From Labilibaculum antarcticum (GTDB taxonomy: Bacteria; Bacteroidota; Bacteroidia; Bacteroidales; Marinifilaceae): a stretch of DNA of 64,000 nt. Position numbers and translations under genes: made by a program. A model generated the notes under the pieces. That model was not told where the DNA came from. It searched no databases and saw nothing but the letters and a program-made list of their open reading frames with translations. Positions 13,313 through 50,922 of this stretch are shown here, one piece after another; positions within the stretch are counted from its first letter, which is position 1, and every line of letters starts with the position of its first letter. The stretch covers positions 4,434,361-4,498,360 of the forward strand of contig NZ_AP018042.1 in NCBI RefSeq assembly GCF_002356295.1. The letters run 5' to 3'.

Positions 13313-13313
13313 A

Positions 13314-13433
13314 GGTCAGTTGGTAACAAAAGCTATATGTAATGCGGAATTTAGTGCACTATTGGAATACTGTGAGCTAGATACTTTAGCGATGGTTATG
13401 ATTTATGAGCATTTTCGGGAATTAAAAAATTGA
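13314..13433 (+). pseudogene. C-terminal remnant of a DUF2779 protein
   Basis: After the ATPase stop codon, another frame reads ALLEYCELDTLAMVMIYEH, the C-terminal signature of DUF2779 proteins (RNase H-like exonuclease fold). The residual open frame is only ~40 codons beyond the ATPase gene, and the upstream ~400-600 codons of such a protein are missing. The stop is 3 bases before the WYL gene start, so the intact gene was probably co-transcribed with that regulator before truncation. Confidence 0.7.
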
Positions 13434-13436
13434 GTT

Positions 13437-14432
13437 ATGCCAAAAAACAAAGAAGCTTTAAAAAGATATCGAATTATTCACAATATTTTACGAAGAGGCG
13501 GAAGACACAAGACTCGTAGAATAGTTGAAATTTGTAATGATGCTGGAATACCTGTTAAACTTCGAACTATCCAAACAGACCTTAAAGATTTAGCTGAGGA
13601 TACTGAATTAGGTTTCTATTTACCTATTGTGAAAGATGAAAGGACCAAAACATATTTCTATTCAGAAATTCCTGAAAATATCTTTCCATCTTTAGAATTA
13701 GAACCTGAAGAAATAACTGCTTTACTTTTTTATGCAAAAACTGTTAGTCAATATAAAGAATATCCTATTTTCAAAGAAATTACGAATGCTGTTCAAAAAG
13801 TATTCGATAATTCAAATATTGACCCAGAATTAAAAGAACTATTTGAAAAAGAGACATTGCTCGAAACTGAAAAACATCCACAAATAGGAGGAATTGAGTT
13901 AATTTCAGATATTTTAGAGGCAATATCCAAAAAGAAAATTATTGAAATTGAATATCATAAGTTTGATGATGTAATTAAGTGTCATAGACTTAAACCAATT
14001 CTTTTAAAAGAGGATAAACAACTTTGGTATATTCTAGGAATAAATGTTAAGCATGATAGACTTATTACTTTTGCATTAGATCGAATTATTGATGTTACTA
14101 TAACAGAAGATTTATTCGATGAAGTCCCTTTCGATAGTAAAGAATACTTTAAATACTCTTTCGGTATTACAGTTACAGAAGAAGATCCTATTGATGTTAT
14201 TATTTCATTTAATCCTGAACAAGGAAATTATCTTAAAACCTTACCTATTCATCTTTCTCAAATAGTTTTAGAGGATACAACGAGCAAATTTGTTATTAAA
14301 GTTTCTGTTAAACCTTCTTATGAATTTTATTCCAAGATATTCAGTTATGGAAGTTCGGCAACCGTATTAGCCCCAGAATCAATATGTAAAATATTTAAAC
14401 AAACTTTTGTTGAGGCTTTAAGTCGCTATTAA
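13437..14432 (+). CDS. WYL-domain transcriptional regulator
   Basis: A 331-residue regulator. An N-terminal winged helix covers ~1-60 (RYRIIHNILRRGGRHKTRRI, then KLRTIQTDLKDL as recognition helix). The WYL domain (~165-235) contains the signature variant W197-Y198-I199-L200 and conserved RLKPILL and ALDRI. A C-terminal WCX-like extension reaches ~330. WYL proteins bind nucleic-acid-type ligands and commonly repress defence genes. It precedes the ubiquitin-like operon by 111 bases, in which a perfect inverted repeat could be its operator. Whether it controls the operon, the ATPase upstream, or both is unknown. Confidence 0.88.
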   Translation: MPKNKEALKRYRIIHNILRRGGRHKTRRIVEICNDAGIPVKLRTIQTDLKDLAEDTELGFYLPIVKDERTKTYFYSEIPENIFPSLELEPEEITALLFYAKTVSQYKEYPIFKEITNAVQKVFDNSNIDPELKELFEKETLLETEKHPQIGGIELISDILEAISKKKIIEIEYHKFDDVIKCHRLKPILLKEDKQLWYILGINVKHDRLITFALDRIIDVTITEDLFDEVPFDSKEYFKYSFGITVTEEDPIDVIISFNPEQGNYLKTLPIHLSQIVLEDTTSKFVIKVSVKPSYEFYSKIFSYGSSATVLAPESICKIFKQTFVEALSRY

Positions 14433-14467
14433 ACGTGCAAATAGAAATTAATTTTTAATTATTTTTT

Positions 14468-14490
14468 ATGACGCAAGTAGAGTGCGTCAT
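14468..14490. promoter_or_regulatory. Perfect inverted repeat, candidate operator
   Basis: ATGACGCA and TGCGTCAT form 8-bp perfect arms around a 7-base spacer. It lies between the WYL gene and the ubiquitin-like gene, 54 bases before the latter's start, and is not followed by a T tract. An operator is therefore more likely than a terminator. Assignment to the WYL protein is inference. Confidence 0.55.
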
Positions 14491-14543
14491 GTCATTGTTT
14501 ATTTGTAACGTAAAATAATATTAACGTTTAAATAAATAATAAA

Positions 14544-14801
14544 ATGTCAAATTCTAAAGAAAAAAAAGAGGTAACCATATTTATAAACGGAGAACCTCAT
14601 GAAGTTGAAAAAGATGAAATAACTTATGATGAAGTAGTAACACTTGCTTTTCCAGATTTTCCGCAACATCCAGAAAGAACTTATTCTGTGACTTATGAAA
14701 GAGGTCAGGGTAACAAACCCACTGGAATCTTATCGCCAGGTGGAACTGTAAAGGTTAAAGAAGGAATGAGATTTAAAGTTAAACATACTGGACAATCATA
14801 A
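14544..14801 (+). CDS. Multiubiquitin-family ubiquitin-like protein
   Basis: Small beta-grasp protein of 85 residues with one ubiquitin-like domain of the bacterial multiubiquitin family (PF14452 type): VTIFINGEPHEVEKDEITYDEVV, then the AFPDFP..P.RTYSVTYERG block and GTVKVKEGMRFKV. The C-terminus is TGQS with no di-glycine, so it either needs no GG tail or is processed. It is followed after 3 bases by an E1-like gene and then DUF6527, the typical companions of bacterial ubiquitin-like conjugation operons. Substrate and function are unknown; defence is the usual inference. Confidence 0.83.
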   Translation: MSNSKEKKEVTIFINGEPHEVEKDEITYDEVVTLAFPDFPQHPERTYSVTYERGQGNKPTGILSPGGTVKVKEGMRFKVKHTGQS

Positions 14802-14804
14802 ACT

Positions 14805-15980
14805 ATGGCTACTAAACTTGCTAAATATAACGAAGACATTGATAGGTTACTAAAGAAGGGTTATGCATTATCTATTGATAGCAATCACCTTGTTGTTAGG
14901 GATATTCCATATCTAGACAATAAAGGTGAATTAAATATTGGGGCAATTGTCTCAATACTGAATTCGATTGACCAGTATAAAGTTGGAATGGTAGATCATC
15001 AAATTTATTTTTGCGGTAGCCACCCTCATGAATTGAGTGGAAAACCAATCAGAAATTTAGGTGGTGGACCAGTACAATTAAAATTAACTTCAGATGATTT
15101 AATAGTGCAAAGATCATTTTCAAATAAACCTCCAAGTGGAAAGTTTGAAAATTGGTTTGATAAAATTGAGAGTTATGTCACCATTATTTCTGGACCATCT
15201 ATGAATAAATTTGATATTCATCCATATACTTTTAGGGTTGTCGCAGAAAACTCAAATTCAGTATTCAAATTTAGAGATACTCTTTCTAGTAGATCTGAAA
15301 TTGGTGATTTAAGTGCTAAACTTGAAGAAGATACTGTTGCGATTATAGGACTTGGAGGAACAGGGGCATATCTTTTAGATTTCCTTGTTAAGACTCCTGT
15401 TAAAGAAATTAGAGGATTTGATTTAGATTGGTATCATGTTCATAATGCTTTTCGTTCGCCTGGAAAATTAGAAGCAGATGAACTTGGTAAAAGAAAATCG
15501 GAAGTATATAAACAACGATACGAAGGCTTTCGTGATAATATTAATATCCACTCTAATTATATTACTTCTGATTCTGAAAAAGATTTAGTGGGTGTTACAT
15601 TTGCTTTTGTATGTGTAGATAGTGGGACTTCTCGTGCTGAAATTTTTGAGTTGCTAATAAAATTGAAAATTCCTTTTATCGATATCGGTATGGGGCTTGA
15701 TAGAAATATGGGGGCTATAAGCGGAATGCTTCGCACAACAAGTTTCTCTAAAGAATCAGCACAAAATCTAATGGAAAAAAGATTAGCTCCCCTGAGTGAT
15801 ATTCCTGATGATGTATATAAAAACAATATTCAAATTTCAGAGCTTAATGCATTAAATGCTTGTTTAGCAATAATAAAGTATAAGCAGTTAAGAGAATTTT
15901 ATGTTGATGACAATTCTTATTATCATACATTATTTAATATCGACGGGCTAAATTGTTTTGGGGAAAATGGAAAGAATTAA
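14805..15980 (+). CDS. ThiF/E1-like adenylyltransferase with DUF6791-type N-terminal domain
   Basis: Putative activating enzyme for the adjacent ubiquitin-like protein, 391 residues. An N-terminal ~170-residue domain (DIPYLDNKGELNIG; VDHQIYFCGSHPHE) resembles DUF6791. The Rossmann ThiF fold starts at ~178 with G182-x-G184-x-x-G187 in IIGLGGTG. Arg and Lys of the adenylation site lie in NAFRSPGKLEADELGKRKSE, and a CVDSGTSR segment follows. No CxxC zinc pairs are present and no E1 catalytic cysteine is obvious in the usual loop. No separate E2 gene is nearby, so the N-terminal domain may provide the transfer function, or adenylation alone may suffice. Confidence 0.85.
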   Translation: MATKLAKYNEDIDRLLKKGYALSIDSNHLVVRDIPYLDNKGELNIGAIVSILNSIDQYKVGMVDHQIYFCGSHPHELSGKPIRNLGGGPVQLKLTSDDLIVQRSFSNKPPSGKFENWFDKIESYVTIISGPSMNKFDIHPYTFRVVAENSNSVFKFRDTLSSRSEIGDLSAKLEEDTVAIIGLGGTGAYLLDFLVKTPVKEIRGFDLDWYHVHNAFRSPGKLEADELGKRKSEVYKQRYEGFRDNINIHSNYITSDSEKDLVGVTFAFVCVDSGTSRAEIFELLIKLKIPFIDIGMGLDRNMGAISGMLRTTSFSKESAQNLMEKRLAPLSDIPDDVYKNNIQISELNALNACLAIIKYKQLREFYVDDNSYYHTLFNIDGLNCFGENGKN

Positions 15981-16368
15981 ACTATTAAAAGTACATTATT
16001 TACCAAAAGAACTTGAAGAAGGGTTTTTATATGTTTCTAAAGAATTTGGAGTTGCGGGACACTTATGTCCTTGTGGTTGTAAGAATAAAATAATAACACC
16101 ACTTGATCTAGCTGAGTGGTCTTTTAAAGAGGTAAATAACAAACCAACTCTTTATCCATCTATTGGTAATTGGCAATTACCTTGTAAATCTCATTATTGG
16201 ATTATAGATGGTAAAATAGTATGGTCATATCAGTGGAGTGAAGAACAAATTAAAGAAGGGGGCGAAGCCGAAGAAGAAAAGAGAAAGTCATATTATTATA
16301 ATCTTGAAAATAAGTATAATAAACAATCTCTTTTCAAACGATTTATTAAATTTGTTTTTGGTAAATAG
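15967..16368 (+). CDS. DUF6527 family protein of the ubiquitin-like operon
   Basis: A 133-residue protein. The ATG at 15967 is preferred over an in-frame TTG at 15958 and gives a 14-base overlap with the E1-like gene, implying translational coupling. Conserved features are H32-L-C34-P-C36-G-C38 and the block LYPSIGNWQLPCKSHYWII with C73 and H76, a plausible zinc site. A charged tail (EEEKRKSYYY) and a short hydrophobic basic end follow. DUF6527 genes accompany ubiquitin-like and E1/E2-like genes in bacterial operons; a peptidase or conjugation accessory role has been proposed for such partners but cannot be proved from sequence here. Confidence 0.8.
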   Translation: MERIKLLKVHYLPKELEEGFLYVSKEFGVAGHLCPCGCKNKIITPLDLAEWSFKEVNNKPTLYPSIGNWQLPCKSHYWIIDGKIVWSYQWSEEQIKEGGEAEEEKRKSYYYNLENKYNKQSLFKRFIKFVFGK

Positions 16369-23828: not shown

Positions 23829-24533
23829 ATGAATACGGGCTTTTCAAAAAATATAGAGAATCTGATAAACGATCTCAGAAATCAGAATTCGGTCACCAAT
23901 CCGATGGTTTTAGAGATGGTTGAAAGTTATAAACTAACAGAACAAGATGTCGCCCAATATTTTTCTTACAACCATTCCCCAGATGAAAGTTACGGCAGGC
24001 AGTTGATTTACGATAACGGAAATTTTAAAATCCTTTTAATGTCATGGAAACCGGGAGATTTTACTGCCATCCACAATCATGGCTATACCGAGTGGGGTTG
24101 TGTTTACTTTTTTGGTGAAGCTACCCATCGTTTGTACAGCGTAACAAATGATGAACTGAAAATTATTCAAAAAGACAATTTTCAAAAAGGGCAAATTGCT
24201 TCGGTGAGTGGAAATTTAACTCATATGATGGGCAATTCAAGTTCCAAAAACTTTAGCACTCTTCATATTTATGGTTCAAACAGCCAGCAAAGCGATGTTT
24301 CAAAGGATGCTATTGTTTATCTTCCCGAATTAGATAAGGAAGTAACAACAATGGGTTCGGCATATTTGAATATGGACAAGCAACTTATTCTTTCTGAAAA
24401 GCCATTGATAAACGTAAGTAACGAGCTTGTTGCCGATTATTTTTCATTGGTAAAACTGTTTTATGAATGCAATGGACTTTCGCCCCTCTTGCGTAATATG
24501 GAGAAGAAATTGGGAAATAGAAGTATTAATTAA
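23829..24533 (+). CDS. Cysteine dioxygenase-like cupin protein
   Basis: 234-residue cupin whose iron ligands would be H82 and H84 in TAIHNHGYTEW and H132 in NLTHMMGN, the three-His pattern of cysteine dioxygenase type thiol dioxygenases. LHIYGSN (~145) closes the barrel. These enzymes oxidise a thiol to a sulfinate, for example cysteine to cysteine sulfinate. The adjacent PLP decarboxylase gene, 13 bases on, would suit the next step to hypotaurine. Substrate (cysteine or another thiol) is inference. Confidence 0.8.
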   Translation: MNTGFSKNIENLINDLRNQNSVTNPMVLEMVESYKLTEQDVAQYFSYNHSPDESYGRQLIYDNGNFKILLMSWKPGDFTAIHNHGYTEWGCVYFFGEATHRLYSVTNDELKIIQKDNFQKGQIASVSGNLTHMMGNSSSKNFSTLHIYGSNSQQSDVSKDAIVYLPELDKEVTTMGSAYLNMDKQLILSEKPLINVSNELVADYFSLVKLFYECNGLSPLLRNMEKKLGNRSIN

Positions 24534-24546
24534 GCAGAAAACAAAA

Positions 24547-25962
24547 ATGAAAGATATTGAGATTTTATCAGGAGCATTTGAGAAAATTAGAGCTTATATT
24601 CAAGAAAATCAAAACGATTCTCAACCCGTAGTTAAATTCAAAAGCCCTGAAGAATTGAAGGAAGTATTTGATTTTAAAGTTGGCGAAAACGGAGTTTCCG
24701 AGAACGAATTTCTTGAACTTTTAGACAAGTATTTGGAATATTCAGTAAGAACAGGCAACAAGCAGTTTTTAAATCAACTGTATTCAGGTTTTAATTTCCC
24801 GGCTTTTATTGGTGAGGTGTTTAGCGTTTTGGCAAATACTTCAATGTACACATACGAAGTAGCCCCGGTTGCCACTGTCATCGAAACGGAAATGATTTCA
24901 CTAATGAACAGTTATGCGGGTTATTCCGATGGCGATGGAATTTTTGTAAGTGGTGGGAGCAACGCAAATTTAATTGCCATGTTCTCGGCTCGAAACAGAA
25001 TTTTTCCAGATAGCCGCTTTGAAGGATATGACCGAAACAATAAACTAGTTGCTTTTGTAAATGAGCAAGCGCATTATTCATTTGAAACCGCGGCTAATAT
25101 TTTAGGTATTGGGGCAAAAAATGTAATCAAAGTAAAAGCCGACAAAAACGGCAAACTCATTAGCTCGGAATTGGAAAAGGAAATAGCAAAGGCTATTAGT
25201 CGTGGCGAAAAACCATTTTTTGCTGTCGCAACTTGTGCAACAACATTGTTGGGAGCTTATGATCCAATTGAAGAAATGGCTGAGATATGCAAAAAACACA
25301 ATATTTGGCTTCATGCCGATGGCTCATTTGGCGGTTCTTTGATATTAAGCGATAAAAACCGGTATTTAATGAAAGGCATTGAGCAAACCGATTCATTTGC
25401 CTGGAATCCTCATAAACTCATGAATATCCCTCTGATTTGTTCTGCACTGCTTGTTAAAAAACGCGGCACACTTCAACACAATATTACAGATATAAATACC
25501 GATTACATTTTTCATGATATTGATGCCATTGAAGATTTAGGAAAGAAATCAATACAATGTGGAAGAAAAGTAGATGCAGTTAAACTTTGGTTTGCGTGGA
25601 AATATTTTGGCTTAGAAGGTTACCAAAAGCGCATCGACAATTTAATTGACATGGCTGTTTATGCCGAAAACATTGTAAATGAAAATCCGCAGCTTGAGCT
25701 TTTATCTGAAAGAAATTCTTTTGCTGTTTGCTTTCGATACATTCCTAAAAATGAAAGCGATTTGAATAAATTCAATCTTGAATTACGCGAATCCTTAAGA
25801 AAATCGGGCAAGTCAATTGTGAACTATGGTTACATTGGTAAAACATTGGCAATACGCCTGATTACAGCAAACGGGGAACTGCAGAAGTCGGACATTGATT
25901 TGTTTTTTGCCAATTTATTGTTCGAAGTAGAAAAACTTGAAAATGCGATTTTCAATGCCTGA
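24547..25962 (+). CDS. PLP-dependent group II decarboxylase
   Basis: 471 residues. The ATG at 24547 is chosen because an upstream start at 24463 would overlap the preceding gene by 70 bases. The fold-type I aspartate aminotransferase-like core has VSGGSNANLIAM, the PLP-phosphate region CATTLLGAYDP, the Asp of HADGSFGGS and lysine K290 in AWNPHKLMN. It is of the glutamate/cysteine-sulfinate/aromatic decarboxylase group. Placed after a cysteine-dioxygenase-like gene, it is a candidate cysteine sulfinate decarboxylase producing hypotaurine. It overlaps the next gene by 8 bases. Confidence 0.87.
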   Translation: MKDIEILSGAFEKIRAYIQENQNDSQPVVKFKSPEELKEVFDFKVGENGVSENEFLELLDKYLEYSVRTGNKQFLNQLYSGFNFPAFIGEVFSVLANTSMYTYEVAPVATVIETEMISLMNSYAGYSDGDGIFVSGGSNANLIAMFSARNRIFPDSRFEGYDRNNKLVAFVNEQAHYSFETAANILGIGAKNVIKVKADKNGKLISSELEKEIAKAISRGEKPFFAVATCATTLLGAYDPIEEMAEICKKHNIWLHADGSFGGSLILSDKNRYLMKGIEQTDSFAWNPHKLMNIPLICSALLVKKRGTLQHNITDINTDYIFHDIDAIEDLGKKSIQCGRKVDAVKLWFAWKYFGLEGYQKRIDNLIDMAVYAENIVNENPQLELLSERNSFAVCFRYIPKNESDLNKFNLELRESLRKSGKSIVNYGYIGKTLAIRLITANGELQKSDIDLFFANLLFEVEKLENAIFNA

Positions 25963-35786: not shown

Positions 35787-36530
35787 TTAGTTAATAAATG
35801 CGGTGATAATAATGATAGAACCGGTGATGATATTAATTCCAATCACTATTTTCCTGAATTTTTCAGGTTCTATTCTCCCGGAAAATTTTGATCCGAAATG
35901 GGAACCAAAAAATAGAATTGGAAGACAGAAAAGAGCAAGATTAACAGATTCCATTTCTATCATGCCTTTCATTAAAAAGGCGACAGTGGTAAAAAAGGAG
36001 GAAAAAGTACTGAACCAGGCAAATACGCCTCGAAACCTTTCTTTTGAATAGCCTTTACGATTCATCGCAATTACCAGAGGAGGACCCCCAACAGATATGG
36101 CGCTGCCGAGAATTCCACTAATAAATCCGGCAAATACAATCGGGAAATTTAAAAAGCGTTTGGCCAATTTTACTTTGCCTAACATTTGAATCGAAAAAAG
36201 GATAATGAGAATACCCGTAATTAGTCGCAAGGTATCGCTGCTAACATATTCGAGCGCATAAATACCCAATGGAATTCCTCCCAAACTGGCAATAAACATG
36301 GGAATGAAATAGTAGGCTTTTATTTTCTCCCGAAGTTTAAATAAGATCACCAAACTGGTAATTAAATTGAATAAACTCATAGCAGGAACCAATACCTGCA
36401 TTGGAAAAATAAAAGAAAGAAAAGGGATTGCAAGTAATGCAAATCCAAAACCTGTCATCCCTTTTATAAATGCTGCCGAAAGAATAACTATGCTGCAAAG
36501 AACGATTTGAATTATGGTAATGTCATGCAT
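35787..36530 (-). CDS. TauE/SafE (TSUP) family transporter
   Basis: 247 residues, eight predicted membrane helices. The duplicated TSUP motif appears as FIKGMTGFGFALLAIPFL in the first half and GFISGILGSAISVGGPPLVIAM in the second. The family exports sulfite, sulfoacetate or other organosulfur anions. It may connect to the sulfur genes elsewhere in the window but lies in no operon with them. Confidence 0.88.
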   Translation of the reverse strand: MHDITIIQIVLCSIVILSAAFIKGMTGFGFALLAIPFLSFIFPMQVLVPAMSLFNLITSLVILFKLREKIKAYYFIPMFIASLGGIPLGIYALEYVSSDTLRLITGILIILFSIQMLGKVKLAKRFLNFPIVFAGFISGILGSAISVGGPPLVIAMNRKGYSKERFRGVFAWFSTFSSFFTTVAFLMKGMIEMESVNLALFCLPILFFGSHFGSKFSGRIEPEKFRKIVIGINIITGSIIIITAFIN

Positions 36531-43516: not shown

Positions 43517-44197
43517 TTATCCATTTTTGCGGATGCTTCTCAAGCGTTCCATATCCAGAATTTCTATGTTTTTTCCATTTAATGATATGACACCATCGCT
43601 ATTTAAATTGGCCAGTATTCGGGAAACACTTTCTCTTGAATTACCAGTTAAGTCACCAAATTCTTGTCGGGAGAGAGGTAGTGAAAAATTCAGCTCGTTA
43701 AATATATCTTCAGCAAAAAAGCAAAGGGATTCTGCAATTCTTCCCTGACTTTGCTTTTGCACTTGATTTACACAATGATCAAAATGCCCTAATTCATTCT
43801 TGCATAATTCTGTGATTATTTCGTAGGCGAAATCGCTGTTTGATGCGATGAAATCTTTAAAAGAGTCTAAACTGATGAAGCAAACTCTTGTTTCCATTAA
43901 TGCTGTGGCAGAATAATGATTCACTTTATCTCCAAGAGTTGTAGGGATTCCAAGATAAATAGGTCCTTTAATAATCTTTAAAATTTGTTCTCTCTCAGGG
44001 CCAGTAATATGTATTTTCACTAATCCACTTTTTACAAAGATGATATTTGAAGAAAGAGCATTTTGCCTGAAAATAACGTCCCCTTTATGAAATTTCACAT
44101 CCACGCAGCTTTCCTCAAGCATTTTTAGTTCTTTATCGTTTAAAAAATTTGTAGCACTAGACCTGTTGCTGCAAAGTTTACATGATTTTTCGTTCAT
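43517..44197 (-). CDS. Crp/Fnr family transcriptional regulator
   Basis: 226 residues. The cyclic-nucleotide-binding-like beta roll covers ~25-140 (KFHKGDVIFRQNALSSNIIFVKSG), then the dimer helix and a winged helix with recognition segment LSRQEFGDLTGNSRESVSRI. N-terminal cysteines C6 and C9 (SCKLCSNR), with C31 further on, resemble partial FNR-type ligation, so redox sensing is possible. It is divergent from the Qmo-like sulfur operon, and a perfect CRP/FNR-type palindrome lies in the shared 0.4-kb region. Confidence 0.92.
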   Translation of the reverse strand: MNEKSCKLCSNRSSATNFLNDKELKMLEESCVDVKFHKGDVIFRQNALSSNIIFVKSGLVKIHITGPEREQILKIIKGPIYLGIPTTLGDKVNHYSATALMETRVCFISLDSFKDFIASNSDFAYEIITELCKNELGHFDHCVNQVQKQSQGRIAESLCFFAEDIFNELNFSLPLSRQEFGDLTGNSRESVSRILANLNSDGVISLNGKNIEILDMERLRSIRKNG

Positions 44198-44330
44198 AAA
44201 TTATCCTGATCGAGATTAAAGAAATATTTATTTAATAAATGTACTGATTTTGAGTCTAATATGTGGATTTTATATGTTTTTACTGAATCGCAGTAATGAA
44301 ATCAGATGTAAATATATAAATATTTCTATA

Positions 44331-44348
44331 ATGTGATATGAATCACAT
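44331..44348. promoter_or_regulatory. CRP/FNR-type operator
   Basis: ATGTGAT-ATGA-ATCACAT, a perfect palindrome containing TGTGA-N6-TCACA. It lies between the crp/fnr gene and the sulfur operon, about 70 bases upstream of the candidate -7 element of the operon. Confidence 0.75.
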
Positions 44349-44400
44349 CAATATTTACTCTACATCACACCTTAATTATTAAAAACCGTTTTTCCTCTCT

Positions 44401-44417
44401 GTAGATTTGTAATCTAC
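44401..44417 (+). promoter_or_regulatory. -7 element embedded in a second palindrome
   Basis: TAGATTTG (44402-44409) fits TAnnTTTG and sits inside GTAGATT-TGT-AATCTAC, a perfect 7-bp inverted repeat. A repressor site or hairpin at the transcript start is possible. Confidence 0.5.
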
Positions 44418-44438
44418 ACTAATTAAAAAGTAAATCAA

Positions 44439-44549
44439 ATGGCAATTAAGAAATTAACCACAGTCCTTAAGAATATATGTGTTGGTAAATTGATTGCTAT
44501 TCGTAATGTTTTTGGTAGCGCTATTAGTAATAGTATGGATGGTTTTTGA
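44439..44549 (+). CDS. Possible 36-residue protein at the head of the sulfur operon
   Basis: ATG 44439 to TGA 44547, directly downstream of the candidate promoter and 69 bases before the DsrE-like gene. Basic, amphipathic composition (MAIKKLTTVLKN, GKLIAIRNVFG). No family known. It could be a leader peptide or chance. Confidence 0.35.
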   Translation: MAIKKLTTVLKNICVGKLIAIRNVFGSAISNSMDGF

Positions 44550-44618
44550 GGAAAAGTTCATATCTGACATTTTCACAAAACTCCGATTTAAGTTTATTTA
44601 TTTAATTCAAAAACTAAA

Positions 44619-45185
44619 ATGCAACAAGTAACAGAAATTCAGGCTGTTGATTTTCAAAAACAAATTGACGCCTTAACCGCAAAGGTTTCCATGCTGGAAG
44701 ACATGAACCAAGACCAATTATCAATAGCGGTAGTGTCTGGTGATTTTGATAAGATTTTAGCAGCTATGGTTATTTCTCTCGGAGCTGCAGCAATGGATAC
44801 AGAAGTTAAATTATTCTTTTCATTTTGGTCAATTGCAGCCTTACGTGATCCAAAAAAATCAGTTCGAGGTAAGAATTTCATTTCTAAAATGTTCGGAATT
44901 ATGCTTCCTAAAGGTTGGGAACATTTAAAATTGTCAACCATGAACATGGGGGGGGTGGGACCGCGAATGATAAAATCGATTATGAAAAAACATGGCGTTC
45001 TTTCTTTGGAAGAAATGTTTAAGCAAGCTGGTGAACTCGGTATTGAAATTACCATCTGTGAGATGTCTATGGATTTGATGGGGATTAAGAAAGAGGAATT
45101 GATCGACTATCCAAATATGCGTATCGCCGGGGCTGTAACATTTGCAGGTGATATGGGTGAGAGTTCAGCTCAGTTATTTATATAA
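44619..45185 (+). CDS. DsrE/DsrF/DrsH-like family protein (DsrE2 type)
   Basis: 188 residues. A short coiled N-terminus precedes LSIAVVSGDFDKILAAMVISLGAAAMDTEV, the DsrE-like Rossmann start. KLFFSFWSIAALRD, the MNMGGVGPRMIKSIM segment and the cysteine in ITICEMSMDLMGI follow, as in DsrE2-type sulfur carriers. It would hold or relay persulfide. Followed by tusA after 33 bases, it starts a likely single operon to 50458. Confidence 0.87.
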   Translation: MQQVTEIQAVDFQKQIDALTAKVSMLEDMNQDQLSIAVVSGDFDKILAAMVISLGAAAMDTEVKLFFSFWSIAALRDPKKSVRGKNFISKMFGIMLPKGWEHLKLSTMNMGGVGPRMIKSIMKKHGVLSLEEMFKQAGELGIEITICEMSMDLMGIKKEELIDYPNMRIAGAVTFAGDMGESSAQLFI

Positions 45186-45218
45186 AAAGAATTTTTTTAA
45201 TTATTAAAATTTAAAATC

Positions 45219-45467
45219 ATGACACAAGAAGAATTATTGACAGTAAACGCAGACACATGTGTTGATGCGCGTGGAACTTCATGCCCAGGACCATTATTGG
45301 CTGCTAAAAAAGCAATTGGAACTATTGATAAAGGTCAAATTATGGAAATTCTTTCAGCTGATGAAGGAACAAGAAATGATATTCCAAAATGGTGTAACAA
45401 AAAAGGATTCGAATGTTTAGGTACTCTTGAAGAATCTGGGTTTTATAAAATTTATTTAAAAAAATAA
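45219..45467 (+). CDS. tusA: TusA family sulfur carrier
   Basis: 82 residues. VDARGTSCPGPLLAAKKAIG contains the CPxP motif with persulfide-bearing C22. It passes sulfane sulfur among partners such as DsrE-like proteins. The next gene begins 2 bases after the stop, so translation is coupled. Confidence 0.93.
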   Translation: MTQEELLTVNADTCVDARGTSCPGPLLAAKKAIGTIDKGQIMEILSADEGTRNDIPKWCNKKGFECLGTLEESGFYKIYLKK

Positions 45468-45469
45468 AG

Positions 45470-45877
45470 ATGGGAGCGGGAAAAGTAAATAAAAGCCCAA
45501 AGGTTCTGGTTTTTTCAACTGAGAAAATCTCTGATCCAGCTATTGATATGGCGGGTTTATTGAAGTTACATTATCCGCCTACTGTCTATACCATTACAGT
45601 ACCATGTTCAAGTGCAATTAAATCCAAATGGATTTTACATGCGCTTGAACATGGCTTTGATGGTGTATTTATAGCTGCTGATGGAACCGACTGTCCTTAT
45701 GGTGAGTCTTGTGTCGATAAAACCGGCCAGCTTGTAGGTGCAACACAAGAAATTTTAAAGCAAAAAGGGATGGATCCTGCGCGTTTGAAAATGGCAGCTA
45801 TTTGTTCTGTGTGTAGTGAACCATTCGTAAAACATGTAAAGAGTTTTACTAAGTATTTAATGAATTCTTCAAACTAA
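45470..45877 (+). CDS. MvhD-like iron-sulfur electron-transfer subunit (short)
   Basis: 135 residues aligning with the MvhD/hydrogenase iron-sulfur delta subunit: PAIDMAGLLKLHYPPTVYTITVPC, HALEHGFDGVFIAADGTDCPYGES and GMDPARLKMAAICSVCSEPF. Cysteines are C46, C75, C81, C112 and C115. The N-terminal Cys pair usual in MvhD is replaced (FSTEKISDPA), so cluster binding may be altered. In sulfate reducers this domain forms the C-terminus of QmoB; here it is a separate upstream gene. Confidence 0.75.
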   Translation: MGAGKVNKSPKVLVFSTEKISDPAIDMAGLLKLHYPPTVYTITVPCSSAIKSKWILHALEHGFDGVFIAADGTDCPYGESCVDKTGQLVGATQEILKQKGMDPARLKMAAICSVCSEPFVKHVKSFTKYLMNSSN

Positions 45878-45882
45878 GTAGA

Positions 45883-47184
45883 ATGTCGGAAAAGAAAATA
45901 TTAGAATATGATGTACTTGTTGTAGGCGGTGGTATTTCTGGCGGAGAAGCAGCTCTCAATTTGGCCAATCTTAATTATAAGGTTTTGGTGGTTGAGAAAG
46001 ACTTATCTCTGGGTGGAAAAATGATTGCGCTTAGCAAGGTATTCCCAACTCTGGATTGTGCGGCTTGTATAACTACACCAAAAGTATCCGAAATATCAAG
46101 GCATCCGAACATTACAATCATGTTTAGTGCTGAAGCTAAGAAGATTGATAAATTGGGGGATCACAATTTTGAAGCTCATGTACATCAAAAACCAAGATTT
46201 GTAAATATTGATGATTGTACGGCTTGCCAATTGTGTGAGCAAGCTTGTCCGGTTAGCGTAATAGATGAATATCAACAAGGTTTAGTGGGACGTAAAGCCG
46301 CTTTTATTCCATTTAGTATCGCAAGTCCACGTGCAGCAGCTATAGATATCATTAATTGTACCCTTTGTGGAGCATGCGAAAGAGTTTGTCCTACAGGATG
46401 TATCGATTTTACACAAACTGATAAAGACTACACAGTAAAAGCTAAAGCTGTAGTGCTGGCTACTGGTTTTAACTTGTTTGATCCAGTTAAAATTCCACGT
46501 TACGGTTACGGAAAATATAAAAATGTGATTACTTCCATGCAAATGGAAAGACAACTTGCACCTACCAGACCTTTTAATGCAATTCTGCGACCTGGTGATG
46601 GAAAAATGCCGGATAATATCGCCTATGTATTGTGTACCGGATCTCGTGATAAATCTGTAGGAAACCCAATTTGTTCGCAAGTATGTTGTATGTATTCCAT
46701 AAAGCAAGGACAATTGTTAATGGGATCACTTCCTATGGCAGATGTTACGATATATTACTTACACATTAGAGCATTTGGAAAAGGTTTTAATGAATTCTAT
46801 GAACAAGCTCGAGACATGGGAGTCGAATTTATTAAAGGAAAAATAGGAGATATCAAGGAAAAGGAGAATGGAAACTTAATTCTTAGGTATGAAGATGTCG
46901 AAGAAGGTAAAGTGAAGGAGGCCGAACATGATATGGTAGTCCTTTCAGTAGGCGTGATGTCTAATTCTGAAATTTCTGATTCCTTCCAAGGTGAATCGTT
47001 ACGATTGGATGATTATGGTTTCATCAATCAAGATGATATTCTAGCCAGTCCTGCTGAAACCAACATTGATGGTGTATTTGTTGCTGGCACTGCTACTGGT
47101 CCAATGGATATTCCTGATTCAATATTGTCAGCAGGAGCAGCTTCGGCTGAAACTACAAGTTATTTAAGGAGGGCCTCGTTATGA
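45883..47184 (+). CDS. QmoA/HdrA-like flavoprotein with two 4Fe-4S clusters
   Basis: 433 residues. FAD-binding VVGGGISGGEAA (~13-24), the HdrA/QmoA hallmark FPTLDCAACITTPK (C59, C62), two 4Fe-4S motifs at C112/C115/C118/C122 and C159/C162/C165/C169, and VLCTGSRD with a CSQVCC segment downstream. It resembles QmoA in length. It should pass electrons between flavin and Fe-S centres in a soluble part of a Qmo/Hdr-like complex. ATGA overlap with the next gene gives tight coupling. Confidence 0.88.
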   Translation: MSEKKILEYDVLVVGGGISGGEAALNLANLNYKVLVVEKDLSLGGKMIALSKVFPTLDCAACITTPKVSEISRHPNITIMFSAEAKKIDKLGDHNFEAHVHQKPRFVNIDDCTACQLCEQACPVSVIDEYQQGLVGRKAAFIPFSIASPRAAAIDIINCTLCGACERVCPTGCIDFTQTDKDYTVKAKAVVLATGFNLFDPVKIPRYGYGKYKNVITSMQMERQLAPTRPFNAILRPGDGKMPDNIAYVLCTGSRDKSVGNPICSQVCCMYSIKQGQLLMGSLPMADVTIYYLHIRAFGKGFNEFYEQARDMGVEFIKGKIGDIKEKENGNLILRYEDVEEGKVKEAEHDMVVLSVGVMSNSEISDSFQGESLRLDDYGFINQDDILASPAETNIDGVFVAGTATGPMDIPDSILSAGAASAETTSYLRRASL

Positions 47185-49115
47185 AAAAGAAAATAGGTGT
47201 TTACGTATGTCATTGTGGAGGTAATATTTCTGATTACGTGGATGTAGAAAAGGTTCGCGCAGAAATTGAGAAGGACGAAAGTGTTTTTTTAGCCAAAACA
47301 ACCATGTTTGCTTGTGCTGATTCCAACCAGAAGGATATGGTTACAGATATTGCAGAAAAGCAATTGGATGGCGCCGTTGTAGCTTCATGTTCTCCTACCT
47401 TGCACTTACTTACCTTTAGCGCTGTTGCTGAAAGAGGTGGATTGAATAAATACAATTATATTCATGCAAATATCCGGGAGCAAGCCTCTTGGGCACACTC
47501 TGATGATAAGCTTGGTGCAACCGAAAAGGCAATTCAGATTGTAAAAGCCGCAGTTGCAAAAGTGAAGAGATCTAATGCCCTCGAACCATTTCGGGTAGCA
47601 GCTACTAATGCTGTAGCTGTTGTTGGTGCTGGTATCGCAGGGCTTCGTTCAGCAATTCAATTGGCCGAATCTGGAGCTCAGGTTTATTTAATCGAGCGTG
47701 AATTTTTTGTAGGGGGTAGAGTTGCTCAATGGGATGATTTATTTGTGTCAAATGAAACGGGTAAGGAGTTAATTACCCGTCTTTACGACAAAGCAATGAA
47801 TCACAAAAATATCACATTATTTACCGGAGCTGAAATTATTGAGAACAGCGGTAGTGTCGGAAATATCTCACTGAAGGTGAAAATTGCTCCTCGTCATTTC
47901 AAATTGAATTGCAATGAGGGTAATTTAGCGAAAGCCATTGAAGTTTGTCCTGTAGTTGTTCCTGATAAATTTAACTTTGATATTACCACACGCAAGGCTG
48001 TGTACCATAATTTTCCAGGTGAGTATCCACAACTACCGGTAATCGACATGGAGCATTGTACCCGATGTGGTGAATGTGAAAAAGTTTGTGAAAGTGTTGA
48101 CTTTAGTCAGGTGAACGAATTTCTCAATATTAAAGTTGGTTCTGTACTTCTTGCAACAGGTTTTGATCCATACGAACCTAAAAATGATGAGTTTGGTTAT
48201 AAAACCATCGATAATGTAGTTACACTTCCTCAATTTAAACGTTTGGTTCATTATTGCGATGATCAGCTTGTTTACAAAGGAAAAGAGGTGAAAAATGTTG
48301 CCTATATCTATTGCGTAGGCAGTCGTCAGGCTAATGGGGAAAATAAATATTGTTCCCGGTATTGCTGTACAGCTGCAATACATGCAGCAATTACTGCTAA
48401 AAAGAAATACAAAGATCTGTATAATTTCCATTTTAACCGAGGAATAAGAACCTATGGAAAGCAAGAAGTTTTATATGATGAATCTTCTCGTTTGGGTGAT
48501 ATTTATTTGCAGTCATTCGAAGATCATCCACCGGTTGTGTCCAAGGATAGAGACAAGACTATTGTTACTATTAACGATATTCTGACTACAGACAAAACTT
48601 TGGAAGTGGAAGCTGATTTGGTGGTTTTGGTAACCGGAATGGTACCCCGACAAGACAATTCAATTGGCAGCCTTCTGAAGGTTCCTAAGGGTAGGGATAA
48701 TTTCTTCAATGAAATTCATATGAAGTTGCGACCAGTTGAAACGGTAATTGATGGTGTAACCATAGCTGGCGCATCTCAGGGGCCTAAAAATATTACGGAA
48801 TCTGTGAATTCTGCTTTAGCTGCCGCTACTAAATCCTTTTCATTAATTGCTTCAGGAGAGCTTGCTCTTTCACCTACTATTGCGAAAATTGATGTTAACA
48901 ATTGTGAATGGTGTGGTAAATGTGATGATGCATGTCCGTTTAATGCATTAGCCAAAACAGATGTTAATGGTAAGATGGTTGCTGTTGTAAATAAATCTGT
49001 TTGTAAGGGATGTGGAATGTGTACGCCTGTTTGTCCATCTAATGCGATTGATTTGATCGGATATACTGACAATCAAATCGAAAGCATGATTGACGCTTTA
49101 GTATCAACTGATTAA
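47181..49115 (+). CDS. QmoB/HdrA-like flavoprotein with several 4Fe-4S clusters
   Basis: 644 residues. An N-terminal HdrA segment (VYVCHCGGNI, then VVASCSPTLH) precedes FAD-binding VVGAGIAGLRSA (~153). A 4Fe-4S motif HCTRCGECEKVCE is near 290, then IYCVGSR and YCSRYCC. Two C-terminal ferredoxin clusters are CEWCGKCDDACP and CKGCGMCTPVCP. Unlike typical QmoB it lacks the C-terminal MvhD domain, which is encoded separately at 45470. Probable electron-bifurcating or relay subunit of a heterodisulfide-reductase-like complex. Confidence 0.88.
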   Translation: MKKKIGVYVCHCGGNISDYVDVEKVRAEIEKDESVFLAKTTMFACADSNQKDMVTDIAEKQLDGAVVASCSPTLHLLTFSAVAERGGLNKYNYIHANIREQASWAHSDDKLGATEKAIQIVKAAVAKVKRSNALEPFRVAATNAVAVVGAGIAGLRSAIQLAESGAQVYLIEREFFVGGRVAQWDDLFVSNETGKELITRLYDKAMNHKNITLFTGAEIIENSGSVGNISLKVKIAPRHFKLNCNEGNLAKAIEVCPVVVPDKFNFDITTRKAVYHNFPGEYPQLPVIDMEHCTRCGECEKVCESVDFSQVNEFLNIKVGSVLLATGFDPYEPKNDEFGYKTIDNVVTLPQFKRLVHYCDDQLVYKGKEVKNVAYIYCVGSRQANGENKYCSRYCCTAAIHAAITAKKKYKDLYNFHFNRGIRTYGKQEVLYDESSRLGDIYLQSFEDHPPVVSKDRDKTIVTINDILTTDKTLEVEADLVVLVTGMVPRQDNSIGSLLKVPKGRDNFFNEIHMKLRPVETVIDGVTIAGASQGPKNITESVNSALAAATKSFSLIASGELALSPTIAKIDVNNCEWCGKCDDACPFNALAKTDVNGKMVAVVNKSVCKGCGMCTPVCPSNAIDLIGYTDNQIESMIDALVSTD

Positions 49116-49119
49116 AATT

Positions 49120-49422
49120 ATGAATATGGATGTTGAAAAAGGTAAAACCGCAAAATATCGGAAAGAAAAGAATCCTGTAGCCAAAGAGGTTATGGAGAAT
49201 CTTAAATATTTTACAAAAACAAAAAAGATACTTATGGATGCTTTGAAAGAAGGGGATAAAACTGTTCCTCAACTTTCCGAAGCGCTTTCTATACCTGCAG
49301 ATGAGGTGTTGTATCAGTTAATGAGCTTGATTAAATTTGGTTTTGCAGAAACGGGCGATATCGACGATATGGACGAATATTTTTATTACAAAATAAAAGA
49401 CAATGGCAAGGATAAATCCTAA
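49120..49422 (+). CDS. Small winged-helix protein of the Qmo-like operon
   Basis: 100 residues. TKKILMDALKEGDKTVPQLSEAL, then PADEVLYQLMSLIKFGFAETGDIDDMDEYFYYKI, reads as an ArsR/MarR-like winged helix with a beta wing. It sits between qmoB-like and qmoC-like, 4 bases after one and overlapping the next by 20. It could be a local regulator or, given its operon position, a structural or assembly protein. Confidence 0.7.
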   Translation: MNMDVEKGKTAKYRKEKNPVAKEVMENLKYFTKTKKILMDALKEGDKTVPQLSEALSIPADEVLYQLMSLIKFGFAETGDIDDMDEYFYYKIKDNGKDKS

Positions 49423-50458
49423 ATTCACAACTGAGTTGCAAAGCTATGGCGCTTTTGATACAAACGCATGTTATAATTGCGGGAATTGTACAGCTGTTTG
49501 CTCTTTGTCAGACGAAGACAACTCGTTTCCACGAAAAATGGTGAGATATAGTGTACTTGGTTTGGAAAATGAAATTCAATCTTCTTTAGAGCCTTGGCTG
49601 TGCTATTATTGCGGTGATTGCAGTGCAACTTGCCCGCGTGAAGCAGAGCCGGGAGAATTGATGATGTCACTTCGTAGATACCTTACTTCAAGATATGACT
49701 GGACAGGTCTTTCAGGAATGCTTTATAAATCACTAAGCACAACCATTATTGCATTTGTTTTGTTAGCTGTAGGAGTGATATGGTTTGCATCAAGCTTAAA
49801 TTTTGAGCTTGAATCGTTATTGCACTACGGACACTATTTCGAGATGTTGGCAATTGGAGGTGTTTTTCTTTTCATACTGCTACCTAATTTAATTCGGATG
49901 TGGAATTTGATAATTCGAAAACCTAAAGTGAAAGTGACATTTATGGATTACTTTAAATCATTTAGCGAACTGATTGTTCATATGTTTACTCAAAAAAGAA
50001 CATTGGGTTGTGATGATAGTCAGACTCGTTGGGTTCAACACTTAATTCTTGTAATTGGTTATTTATCATTGCTTTTTACAACGGTGTTTTTAGATTGGTT
50101 TGCTACTGATAGCAGTTTCGTTCTGATTCTGGGTTATGCCGAAAGTATAGTCATTTTTTCAGTAACATTTATTTTCATGATTGGGCGTGTCAACAAAAAG
50201 ACGCAAGTGAGTAAAAATTCTCATCCAAGCGACTGGTTTTTTGTGATCTGGTTATTTCTAATGGGATTAAGTGCATTTGCAGTCCGTTTGTTTATCGATT
50301 TAGATATTCTGGAAACTAATATTTGGATGTATTTAATTCATTTAACGGTTCTTGTTCAATGGGCCATAATTATTGTGCCTTTCGGAAAATGGACACATTT
50401 CTTATATCGTTCGTTTGCCATGTACTTTGAGAAACTAAAAAGTTTTTCGGCGTCCTAA
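49403..50458 (+). CDS. QmoC-like membrane subunit (HdrC-HdrE fusion)
   Basis: 351 residues. HdrC-like N-terminus with 4Fe-4S motifs C23/C26/C29/C33 and C67/C70/C73/C77, then about six membrane helices of a b-type-cytochrome/HdrE-like domain with histidines in LHYGHYFE, HLILVIGYLS and LIHLTVLVQW. It should exchange electrons with the quinone pool. It is the last gene of the seven-gene set; no aprAB, sat or dsrAB is nearby, so the electron partner is not adenylylsulfate reductase here. Confidence 0.87.
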   Translation: MARINPKFTTELQSYGAFDTNACYNCGNCTAVCSLSDEDNSFPRKMVRYSVLGLENEIQSSLEPWLCYYCGDCSATCPREAEPGELMMSLRRYLTSRYDWTGLSGMLYKSLSTTIIAFVLLAVGVIWFASSLNFELESLLHYGHYFEMLAIGGVFLFILLPNLIRMWNLIIRKPKVKVTFMDYFKSFSELIVHMFTQKRTLGCDDSQTRWVQHLILVIGYLSLLFTTVFLDWFATDSSFVLILGYAESIVIFSVTFIFMIGRVNKKTQVSKNSHPSDWFFVIWLFLMGLSAFAVRLFIDLDILETNIWMYLIHLTVLVQWAIIIVPFGKWTHFLYRSFAMYFEKLKSFSAS

Positions 50459-50607
50459 ATCAGTATAGATTTAAACAGAAAATTTAGTTGATTGTACTGG
50501 TAAAATAAGGTGACCTTGGATCTGCTTTTCATTCATTTTACTTTTACATATAGGGATAGTTAATCTAAAAATTATGCCAATGAATCTTAAGTTCGAGAGA
50601 ATATTAC

Positions 50608-50643
50608 GACCTCCTGTCAGAAAACTGATTGGAGGTTTTTTTT
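50608..50643 (+). terminator. Terminator of the Qmo-like operon
   Basis: ACCTCCTGTCAG / CTGATTGGAGGT stem with AAAA loop and T tract, 150 bases after the qmoC-like stop. Confidence 0.85.
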
Positions 50644-50706
50644 ATGTTATTTGCCGGGTTGTTTTTAGCTGAAAATTGTTAATTTAGAAAATAAAAAACG
50701 GTACTT

Positions 50707-50922
50707 ATGAAAAAGAAAACAGAACAACACATTCTTGATGCTATGAGCAAAGACTTGTCCAATTGGCATGGTCCATTTTATTGCAACCGAAAAGATTCAC
50801 GCTTAATTGTCCCCAAATACAATCCTATGTTGGGGTGGACCTTAAATTTTGCAAATCCTTATACCTATTTGGGTGTAATAGCCATTATTTTAATTATTCT
50901 AGGTTCCCAATTGTTCTTATAG
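50707..50922 (+). CDS. DUF5808-like small membrane protein
   Basis: 71 residues. DSRLIVPKYNPMLGWTLNFANPYTYLG fits the DUF5808 pattern, followed by one membrane helix (~50-70). Role unknown; single gene. Confidence 0.65.
   Translation: MKKKTEQHILDAMSKDLSNWHGPFYCNRKDSRLIVPKYNPMLGWTLNFANPYTYLGVIAIILIILGSQLFL

Follow-up and report, generated by a model that had tools for sequence, protein, structure and literature searches.

The operon and its gene products

The window analyzed here is a stretch of 64,000 nucleotides from the closed 5.72 Mb genome of Labilibaculum antarcticum (contig NZ_AP018042.1, positions 4,434,361 to 4,498,360). Between its positions 44619 and 50458, seven genes on the plus strand combine redox subunits resembling those of the QmoABC complex with sulfur carriers. 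The first two encode the carriers, i.e. a DsrE2-like protein of 188 amino acids (aa) (dsrE2, 44619–45185; PF13686, 2e-45) and a TusA protein of 82 aa (tusA, 45219–45467; PF01206, 2.9e-20). They are followed by mvhD (45470–45877), encoding an MvhD/FlpD-type iron-sulfur protein of 135 aa (PF02662, 1.1e-27), and by genes for two HdrA-type flavin adenine dinucleotide (FAD)/[4Fe-4S] proteins, one QmoA-like (45883–47184; 433 aa, 454 bits with the HdrA2 model) and one QmoB-like (47181–49115; 644 aa, 556 bits). The last two genes encode a winged-helix protein of 100 aa (49120–49422), recognized by AlphaFold2 and Foldseek, and a QmoC-like membrane subunit of 351 aa (49403–50458) with an HdrC-type dicluster domain and, judged from hydropathy, six hydrophobic segments. 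Consecutive genes are spaced by 33, 2, 5, −4, 4, and −20 bases; because they lie few bases apart or overlap, they very likely form a single operon. Divergently from it, on the minus strand, runs a gene for a Crp/Fnr-type transcription regulator (43517–44197; 226 aa, PF13545/PF00027), and the palindrome TGTGATATGAATCACA (44332–44347) is a putative site for this regulator. A first-pass annotation had reported QmoA-, QmoB-, and QmoC-like genes together with DsrE-like, TusA, and MvhD-like ones. All of these were found at this place and on one strand, whereas the winged-helix gene, the divergent regulator gene, and the palindrome had been overlooked.

The top match of the QmoB-like protein in the PDB was HdrA (5odc_A, 7.1e-130). 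It lacks a fused MvhD domain, MvhD being encoded by a gene of its own. Two products scored below the cut-offs of NCBIfam models, i.e. the QmoC-like protein with the qmoC model NF038018 (159 bits, cut-off 300) and DsrE2 with the DsrE2 equivalog NF047629 (56 bits, cut-off 210), although the match of the latter to PF13686 is clear. Identity to the proteins of L. euxinus A4 was 92% for QmoC and 95% for QmoA.

In alignments with related proteins, MvhD showed five invariant Cys residues (46, 75, 81, 112, and 115; 58/58 rows), and Cys23, 26, 29, 33, 67, 70, 73, and 77 as well as C203 of QmoC were present in 81/81 rows. C203 was weighed as a possible sulfur site and dropped, since it occurs in canonical QmoC too, as do H213 and H332. 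The central CxxCxxC motif of QmoB is absent in 17 of 65 rows, so the electron wiring varies among relatives. The structure model of DsrE2 was poor (predicted local distance difference test score, pLDDT, 55.5) and was not used.

Conservation among relatives

With the QmoC-like protein as query, the named genome collection yielded 478 stretches with a relative, of which the best 80 are the loci analyzed here. Their record titles name Bacteroidota lineages and, in three cases, Chlorobi or Chlorobiota metagenome-assembled genomes. Gene order was counted in the 51 loci with 6.5 kb or more of sequence upstream of qmoC. The order dsrE-tusA-mvhD-qmoA-qmoB-qmoC was identical in all 51, and all seven matches occurred in order in 49, with the winged-helix match sometimes lying inside the QmoB frame. 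One locus (L054) has an additional QmoB-like fragment upstream; another (L101) gave no winged-helix match in the synteny search, but the model finds the domain fused to QmoB. Because the order recurs in every related contig that is long enough, the grouping of these genes is not a matter of chance. The link to sulfur carriers proposed in the first-pass annotation turned out to be strict: DsrE was present in all 54 cases where tusA is preceded by 1 kb or more of sequence, either in DsrE2-like (34) or in a shorter form (20), and each carrier has one invariant Cys (Cys147 of DsrE2, 36/36 rows; that of the short form, 22/22 rows; Cys22 of TusA, within SCPGP, 50/50 rows).

In an order-wide sample, 41 of 198 genomes showed a QmoC match with an E-value of 1e-50 or better. 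Among these, 26 reached at least 54% identity; they were counted by QmoC alone, their neighborhoods being unseen, and one of the matches is partial and three contain a stop. Sampling 295 genomes across the class gave 10 with a match at an E-value of 0.001 and only two with more than 60% identity, i.e. the genome of the window and G277. The module, as we call this tightly conserved gene set, is a property of many Bacteroidales and far from universal in the class. The earlier suggestion of a distinct module in a Bacteroidota needs widening, since many Bacteroidales carry the module. A more distant group (f88: L141 and L142) belongs to another family of the phylum. Its QmoA is 48% identical, and L142 additionally encodes TusA (43%), a winged-helix protein (33%), and a DsrE_2 protein.

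The distribution bears on one alternative explanation, in which the operon would serve biosynthetic sulfur delivery or redox balancing (thiolation, iron-sulfur clusters) and the Qmo-like part would only recycle the carriers without energy gain. TusA relays sulfur for biosynthesis in many bacteria, and the host genome holds only two TusA matches. The patchy occurrence (26 of 198 genomes of the order, by QmoC of at least 54% identity) is unlike that of a housekeeping relay, however, and a membrane subunit of quinone type with a dedicated regulator fits respiration better. We regard a purely biosynthetic role as improbable.

Two side observations concern individual loci. G277 carries the module twice (L146 and L147); the two copies share a contig, face opposite directions, and are separated by three Crp-like genes. 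A pyridoxal phosphate (PLP) enzyme of Cys/Met metabolism is encoded near the module in L083 (1987–3168; PF01053) and L104 (11148–12503); members of its sequence cluster are present in 4 of the 80 loci.

The winged-helix protein

The AlphaFold2 model of the winged-helix protein has a mean pLDDT of 86. Its best Foldseek match was SmtB (1r23_A; E-value 2.5e-4, TM 0.57, root mean square deviation 6.7), and the fold resembles that of ArsR/SmtB-type winged helices. The protein has no conserved Cys, and its wing bears near-invariant acidic residues. The domain was found as a C-terminal fusion to QmoB in 19 of the 80 loci and as a separate gene in 56, with both together in none. The protein is probably a subunit of the complex. 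Because the same domain is fused to the electron-transfer subunit QmoB in relatives, we take its role to be that of a structural or regulatory subunit rather than of a transcription factor.

Two other roles were considered and set aside. SqrR and BigR were both among the Foldseek matches, but a persulfide sensor of their kind is unlikely in a protein that lacks conserved Cys residues. As to a DsrD-like role, the ArsR/SmtB type matched best, and the 50 matches listed included no entry described as DsrD.

The divergent regulator and its putative site

Sequence of 2.2 kb or more upstream of tusA is available for 51 loci; 43 of them have the regulator gene at that place, and eight do not. Cys6, Cys9, and Cys106 of the regulator were invariant (46/46 rows), two of them being spaced as CxxC, which makes a role as redox or sulfur sensor plausible. 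The gap between the regulator gene and dsrE contains TGTGA-N6-TCACA in all 47 cases (46 loci and the window, which are related and hence not independent), 36 times exactly and 11 times with one mismatch. When the bases of the gaps were shuffled singly (n = 20), the mean number of gaps with a site was 0 (exact) and 0.55 (one mismatch). The stricter form TGTGAT-N4-ATCACA occurs at two places in the host genome and at one in each of two Labilibaculum genomes. By eye, the second palindrome of the host genome falls inside the called frame of a potassium-channel-like gene, and no further target was found. Conservation and position suggest that TGTGATATGAATCACA is the probable binding site of the Crp/Fnr-type regulator.

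Sulfate reduction genes and canonical Qmo

Qmo-like genes are usually taken as a mark of sulfate reduction or of adenosine 5′-phosphosulfate (APS) chemistry. In the closed host genome, the best match to the aprA profile model reached 43 bits (cut-off 642), dsrA gave no match at an E-value of 0.001, and the ATP-sulfurylase family PF01747 gave none; this absence rests on one model each, and aprB and dsrB were not searched. The whole genome thus agrees with the first-pass annotation, which had found no sulfate reduction genes near the operon. Among 50 module-bearing genomes tested, a subset of those of the 80 loci, aprA was above the cut-off in five and dsrA in none. All five genomes with aprA carry aprBA clustered with its own canonical qmoA, qmoB (with fused MvhD, 703–710 aa), and qmoC, apart from the module. 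In these five, the identity of the Qmo proteins to those of the window is 25–40%; a comparison with the canonical QmoA, QmoB, and QmoC inspected gave 22–34%. These Bacteroidales aprBA-qmoABC clusters (L156–L160, from the genomes of L035, L039, L047, L060, and L062) come without dsrA above the cut-off, and four of them (not L156) have a gene of 122–123 aa between aprB and aprA.

Across the phylum, 13 of 395 genomes had a QmoC above the family cut-off, and that of the window was not among them. Twelve of the 13 fall into one family, taken to be Chlorobia. Neighborhoods were inspected for four (L138, L139, L140, and L155), in which aprBA was recognized by reading, while aprA of the Bacteroidales was assigned by model. 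The apr-linked QmoC proteins of L138 and L156 scored 498 and 384 bits with NF038018, and QmoB of both loci has a C-terminal MvhD fusion.

The two trees calculated, of QmoC and of QmoA, both parted the module from the canonical forms. In the QmoC tree, ten rows of canonical arrangement split off (100/100), and 25 of the 26 module rows grouped together (100/99); the label 'apr' of one row (L151) denotes the canonical gene arrangement, with no aprBA in its 17 kb, and the contig of a row labeled 'nuoEF' (L145) ends before any such gene could show. The second copy of G277 (L147) grouped with hydrogenase- and NuoEF-linked forms in the QmoC tree and inside the module group in the QmoA tree. There, 20 module rows stood together (97/97), adjoining the f88 pair (100/99), and nine canonical rows stood apart (100/98). 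The root of the QmoA tree was not used. Its QmoB outgroup rows failed to form one group, and the tree contains no QmoA bearing an insert (see below). The HdrA2 model gave 454 bits for QmoA of the window compared with 379 and 362 bits for two canonical QmoA proteins; the trees themselves are without HdrA or type II Qmo references. According to these trees, QmoC and QmoA of the module are lineages separate from canonical Qmo.

The operon could still be seen as a canonical Qmo complex shuttling electrons between menaquinone and APS reductase, as it has subunits of the QmoA, QmoB, and QmoC types. With aprA above the cut-off, dsrA, and ATP-sulfurylase matches lacking in the host, a separate qmoABC beside aprBA in all five apr-bearing relatives, different lineages, and an unfused MvhD, the likelihood of this reading is close to negligible. 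For the host genome it is refuted unless an unrecognizable APS reductase exists, and the earlier statement that this is not the Qmo of APS reductase is borne out. Annotation by Qmo alone would misassign such genomes, because a separate lineage tied to sulfur carriers resides in genomes that lack dsrA and, for the most part, aprA.

Variants of the complex and related fusions

QmoA of the window has no insert. Contig ends leave the QmoA frame uncut in 60 cases, among them a fragment of 124 aa; in 11 of the 60, the frame is 902–967 aa long. In the QmoA of Petrimonas (L092:4881–7709), residues 158–660 match NAD(P)H-dependent GltD-type proteins with 495 bits. The same insert occurs at 56–97% identity in the other ten long QmoA proteins and in one cut frame (L087), and all 12 insert-bearing loci have the QmoB-winged-helix fusion. 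Because a domain of NAD(P)H type is inserted into QmoA, these sequences suggest NAD(P)H as a third partner in the Petrimonas-type relatives.

The host genome also encodes a fusion of 827 aa that joins CoA-disulfide reductase, rhodanese, TusA, and DsrE2 (L153:6165–8648, about 5.611–5.614 Mb); its DsrE2 part is 40% identical to DsrE2 of the operon. By analogy with this flavoprotein fusion, TusA and DsrE2 may serve the HdrA-type flavoproteins of the operon.

Other Qmo-like clusters of the phylum adjoin, by reading, [NiFe]-hydrogenase-like genes (L143, L148, L150, and L152) or NuoE/NuoF-like genes (L144 and L149), and their QmoC proteins belong to the same wider group. The Qmo/HdrA core thus seems to take varied input modules, and in the DsrE-TusA module the sulfur carriers would fill the input slot.

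Proposed function and direction of electron flow

The pairing of sulfur carriers with HdrA-type genes recalls the sHdr route, which the first-pass annotation had raised by calling for a search for its lipoate-binding proteins. In an sHdr variant, persulfide would be oxidized to sulfite with a lipoate-binding protein as carrier. DsrE and TusA are tied to HdrA-type genes here as in sHdr clusters, but the operon has neither a CCG (HdrB) nor a lipoate-binding gene. The single GcvH-type match of the host genome (GCV_H) lies at 2.63 Mb, far from the operon, and CCG proteins are encoded only away from it. We therefore rejected an sHdr identity of the operon, and a functional variant of that route appears very unlikely.

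We tentatively propose, with slightly less than even confidence, that the product of the operon is an oxidoreductase that sits in the membrane, is linked to menaquinone, and acts on protein-bound sulfane sulfur, its reaction and direction being inferred. The Cys of each carrier stands at the persulfide-binding place of such carriers, QmoA and QmoB have FAD and iron-sulfur motifs, and MvhD has iron-sulfur motifs. Further support comes from the strict synteny of carriers and redox genes, the invariance of the carrier Cys, the separate lineages, and the conserved palindrome. The lack of aprA above the cut-off, dsrA, and ATP-sulfurylase in the host, the canonical clusters kept apart in the five apr-bearing relatives, the flavoprotein fusion with TusA and DsrE2, and the NAD(P)H-type insert of some QmoA proteins speak for it as well. 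DsrE and TusA would present sulfane sulfur to the HdrA-type flavoproteins, or would take up sulfide as persulfide. Electrons would then pass through MvhD and the clusters and flavins of QmoA and QmoB to QmoC, and from there into the menaquinone pool, amounting to a quinone-linked, persulfide-forming oxidation of sulfide in the cytoplasm. An HdrA-type flavin could split the electrons, diverting part of them to a low-potential carrier. Control of the operon would lie with the divergently encoded Crp/Fnr-type protein, acting via the conserved palindrome.

Redox potentials are about −270 mV for S0/HS− and about −74 mV for menaquinone. Transfer from sulfide or persulfide to menaquinone is the favored direction because it is downhill, while reduction of S0 by menaquinol needs a second donor. 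On these grounds, persulfide-forming sulfide oxidation is favored over sulfur reduction with modest confidence.

The same complex might nevertheless run in reverse and reduce sulfur from polysulfide or S0, held as persulfide by DsrE/TusA, to H2S with menaquinol and, by confurcation, ferredoxin or NAD(P)H as a low-potential donor, serving fermenters as an electron sink. Many host lineages are anaerobes, QmoA of L092 and its relatives has the NAD(P)H-type insert, and the architecture of the CoA-disulfide reductase fusion in the host suggests persulfide reduction. Against this, menaquinol is not reducing enough for S0 without the help of a second donor or an ion gradient, and simple NAD(P)H-dependent reductases would be enough for an electron sink. 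We consider this reverse operation somewhat unlikely, if the most serious competitor of the oxidative reading.

Several points weigh against the proposed sulfide-oxidizing oxidoreductase. We identified no catalytic site for sulfur redox chemistry; the operon lacks a CCG (HdrB-type) protein, and TusA and DsrE have no cofactor. A protein elsewhere could do the sulfur chemistry: a HdrC/E-like membrane protein of the host (genome positions 4945266–4945907, L163) adjoins, by eye, a CCG protein of 273 aa and a methylmalonyl-CoA-mutase-type gene, which makes a second Hdr-like pair possible. Petrimonas, a genus with the module (L092), is described in the excerpt at hand as an S0 reducer (PMC11664143), which favors reduction. 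Black Sea strains including Labilibaculum tolerated high sulfide, and sulfide oxidation was not observed in culture; the authors suggest that detoxification might proceed through a heterodisulfide reductase system (PMC11129491). Taken together, these observations cut both ways on direction.

In a bolder form of the proposed oxidoreductase, the module would represent a new class of respiratory enzyme, an HdrA-type persulfide:menaquinone oxidoreductase that splits electrons from carrier-bound sulfide sulfur between menaquinone and NAD(P)H or ferredoxin. In sulfidic habitats, Bacteroidales that otherwise live by fermentation would thereby use sulfide as donor or S0 as acceptor without Dsr and Apr. 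We deem this extension rather unlikely as it stands. The module is a concrete, testable candidate for sulfide and polysulfide handling by anaerobic Bacteroidales. Natural experiments on the electron path are offered by the five genomes with dual systems, by the occurrence of DsrE in two forms, by the NAD(P)H-type insert, and by the QmoB-winged-helix fusion.

Other features of the window

About 8 kb from the operon, the window contains a gene for a TauE/SafE-type exporter (35787–36530). A cysteine dioxygenase-like gene overlaps a gene for a PLP-dependent decarboxylase (23829–25962), as for taurine-type metabolism. Consecutive genes for a PHP-AAA ATPase, a WYL regulator, a DUF6791-ThiF protein, and a DUF6527 protein (10646–16368) have the appearance of a defense-type island.

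Comparison with known systems

The module shares with canonical (type I) QmoABC two HdrA-type flavoproteins, a QmoC-type HdrC/HdrE membrane subunit, and an MvhD domain. It differs by DsrE and TusA in place of aprBA, by a separate mvhD gene, and by the additional winged-helix protein. With the sHdr complex it has in common that the sulfur carriers DsrE and TusA are encoded together with Hdr-like subunits; unlike that system, its operon includes neither HdrB/CCG nor the lipoate-binding protein LbpA, but a quinone-type membrane subunit, QmoC. A TusA gene beside one for a DsrE-type protein is also found in the YTD cluster (YedE-TusA-DsrE) described, in the passages available, for sulfur disproportionators (PMC12998232, PMC13293266). 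The partners in the module are Qmo-like genes, and a scan of the nine proteins encoded from 43517 to 50919 showed no YedE-type transporter. The Petrimonas-type QmoA with its GltD-type insert, which the QmoA of the window lacks, resembles HdrL, an HdrA described as carrying two NADH/FAD-binding domains (PMC12142623).

A search of open-licence papers by title and the start of the abstract brought up no description of a DsrE-TusA-Qmo operon, of the palindrome, or of a winged-helix subunit. A complete 'heterodisulfide reductase system' is mentioned, in the part of the text at hand, for strains that seemingly include Labilibaculum euxinus (PMC11129491). A precedent is the 'type II' QmoABC of Neukirchen et al. 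(2023), i.e. Qmo-like genes of unknown role that occur whether Apr and Dsr are present or not (PMC10504309). The portion of that paper at hand describes no DsrE-TusA operon for it, and the comparison is by description, as our trees contain no type II reference. As far as these excerpts go, Qmo-like genes outside the APS reductase context have already been reported as type II as well as alongside Apr and Dsr, and the variant linked to DsrE and TusA appears to be new.

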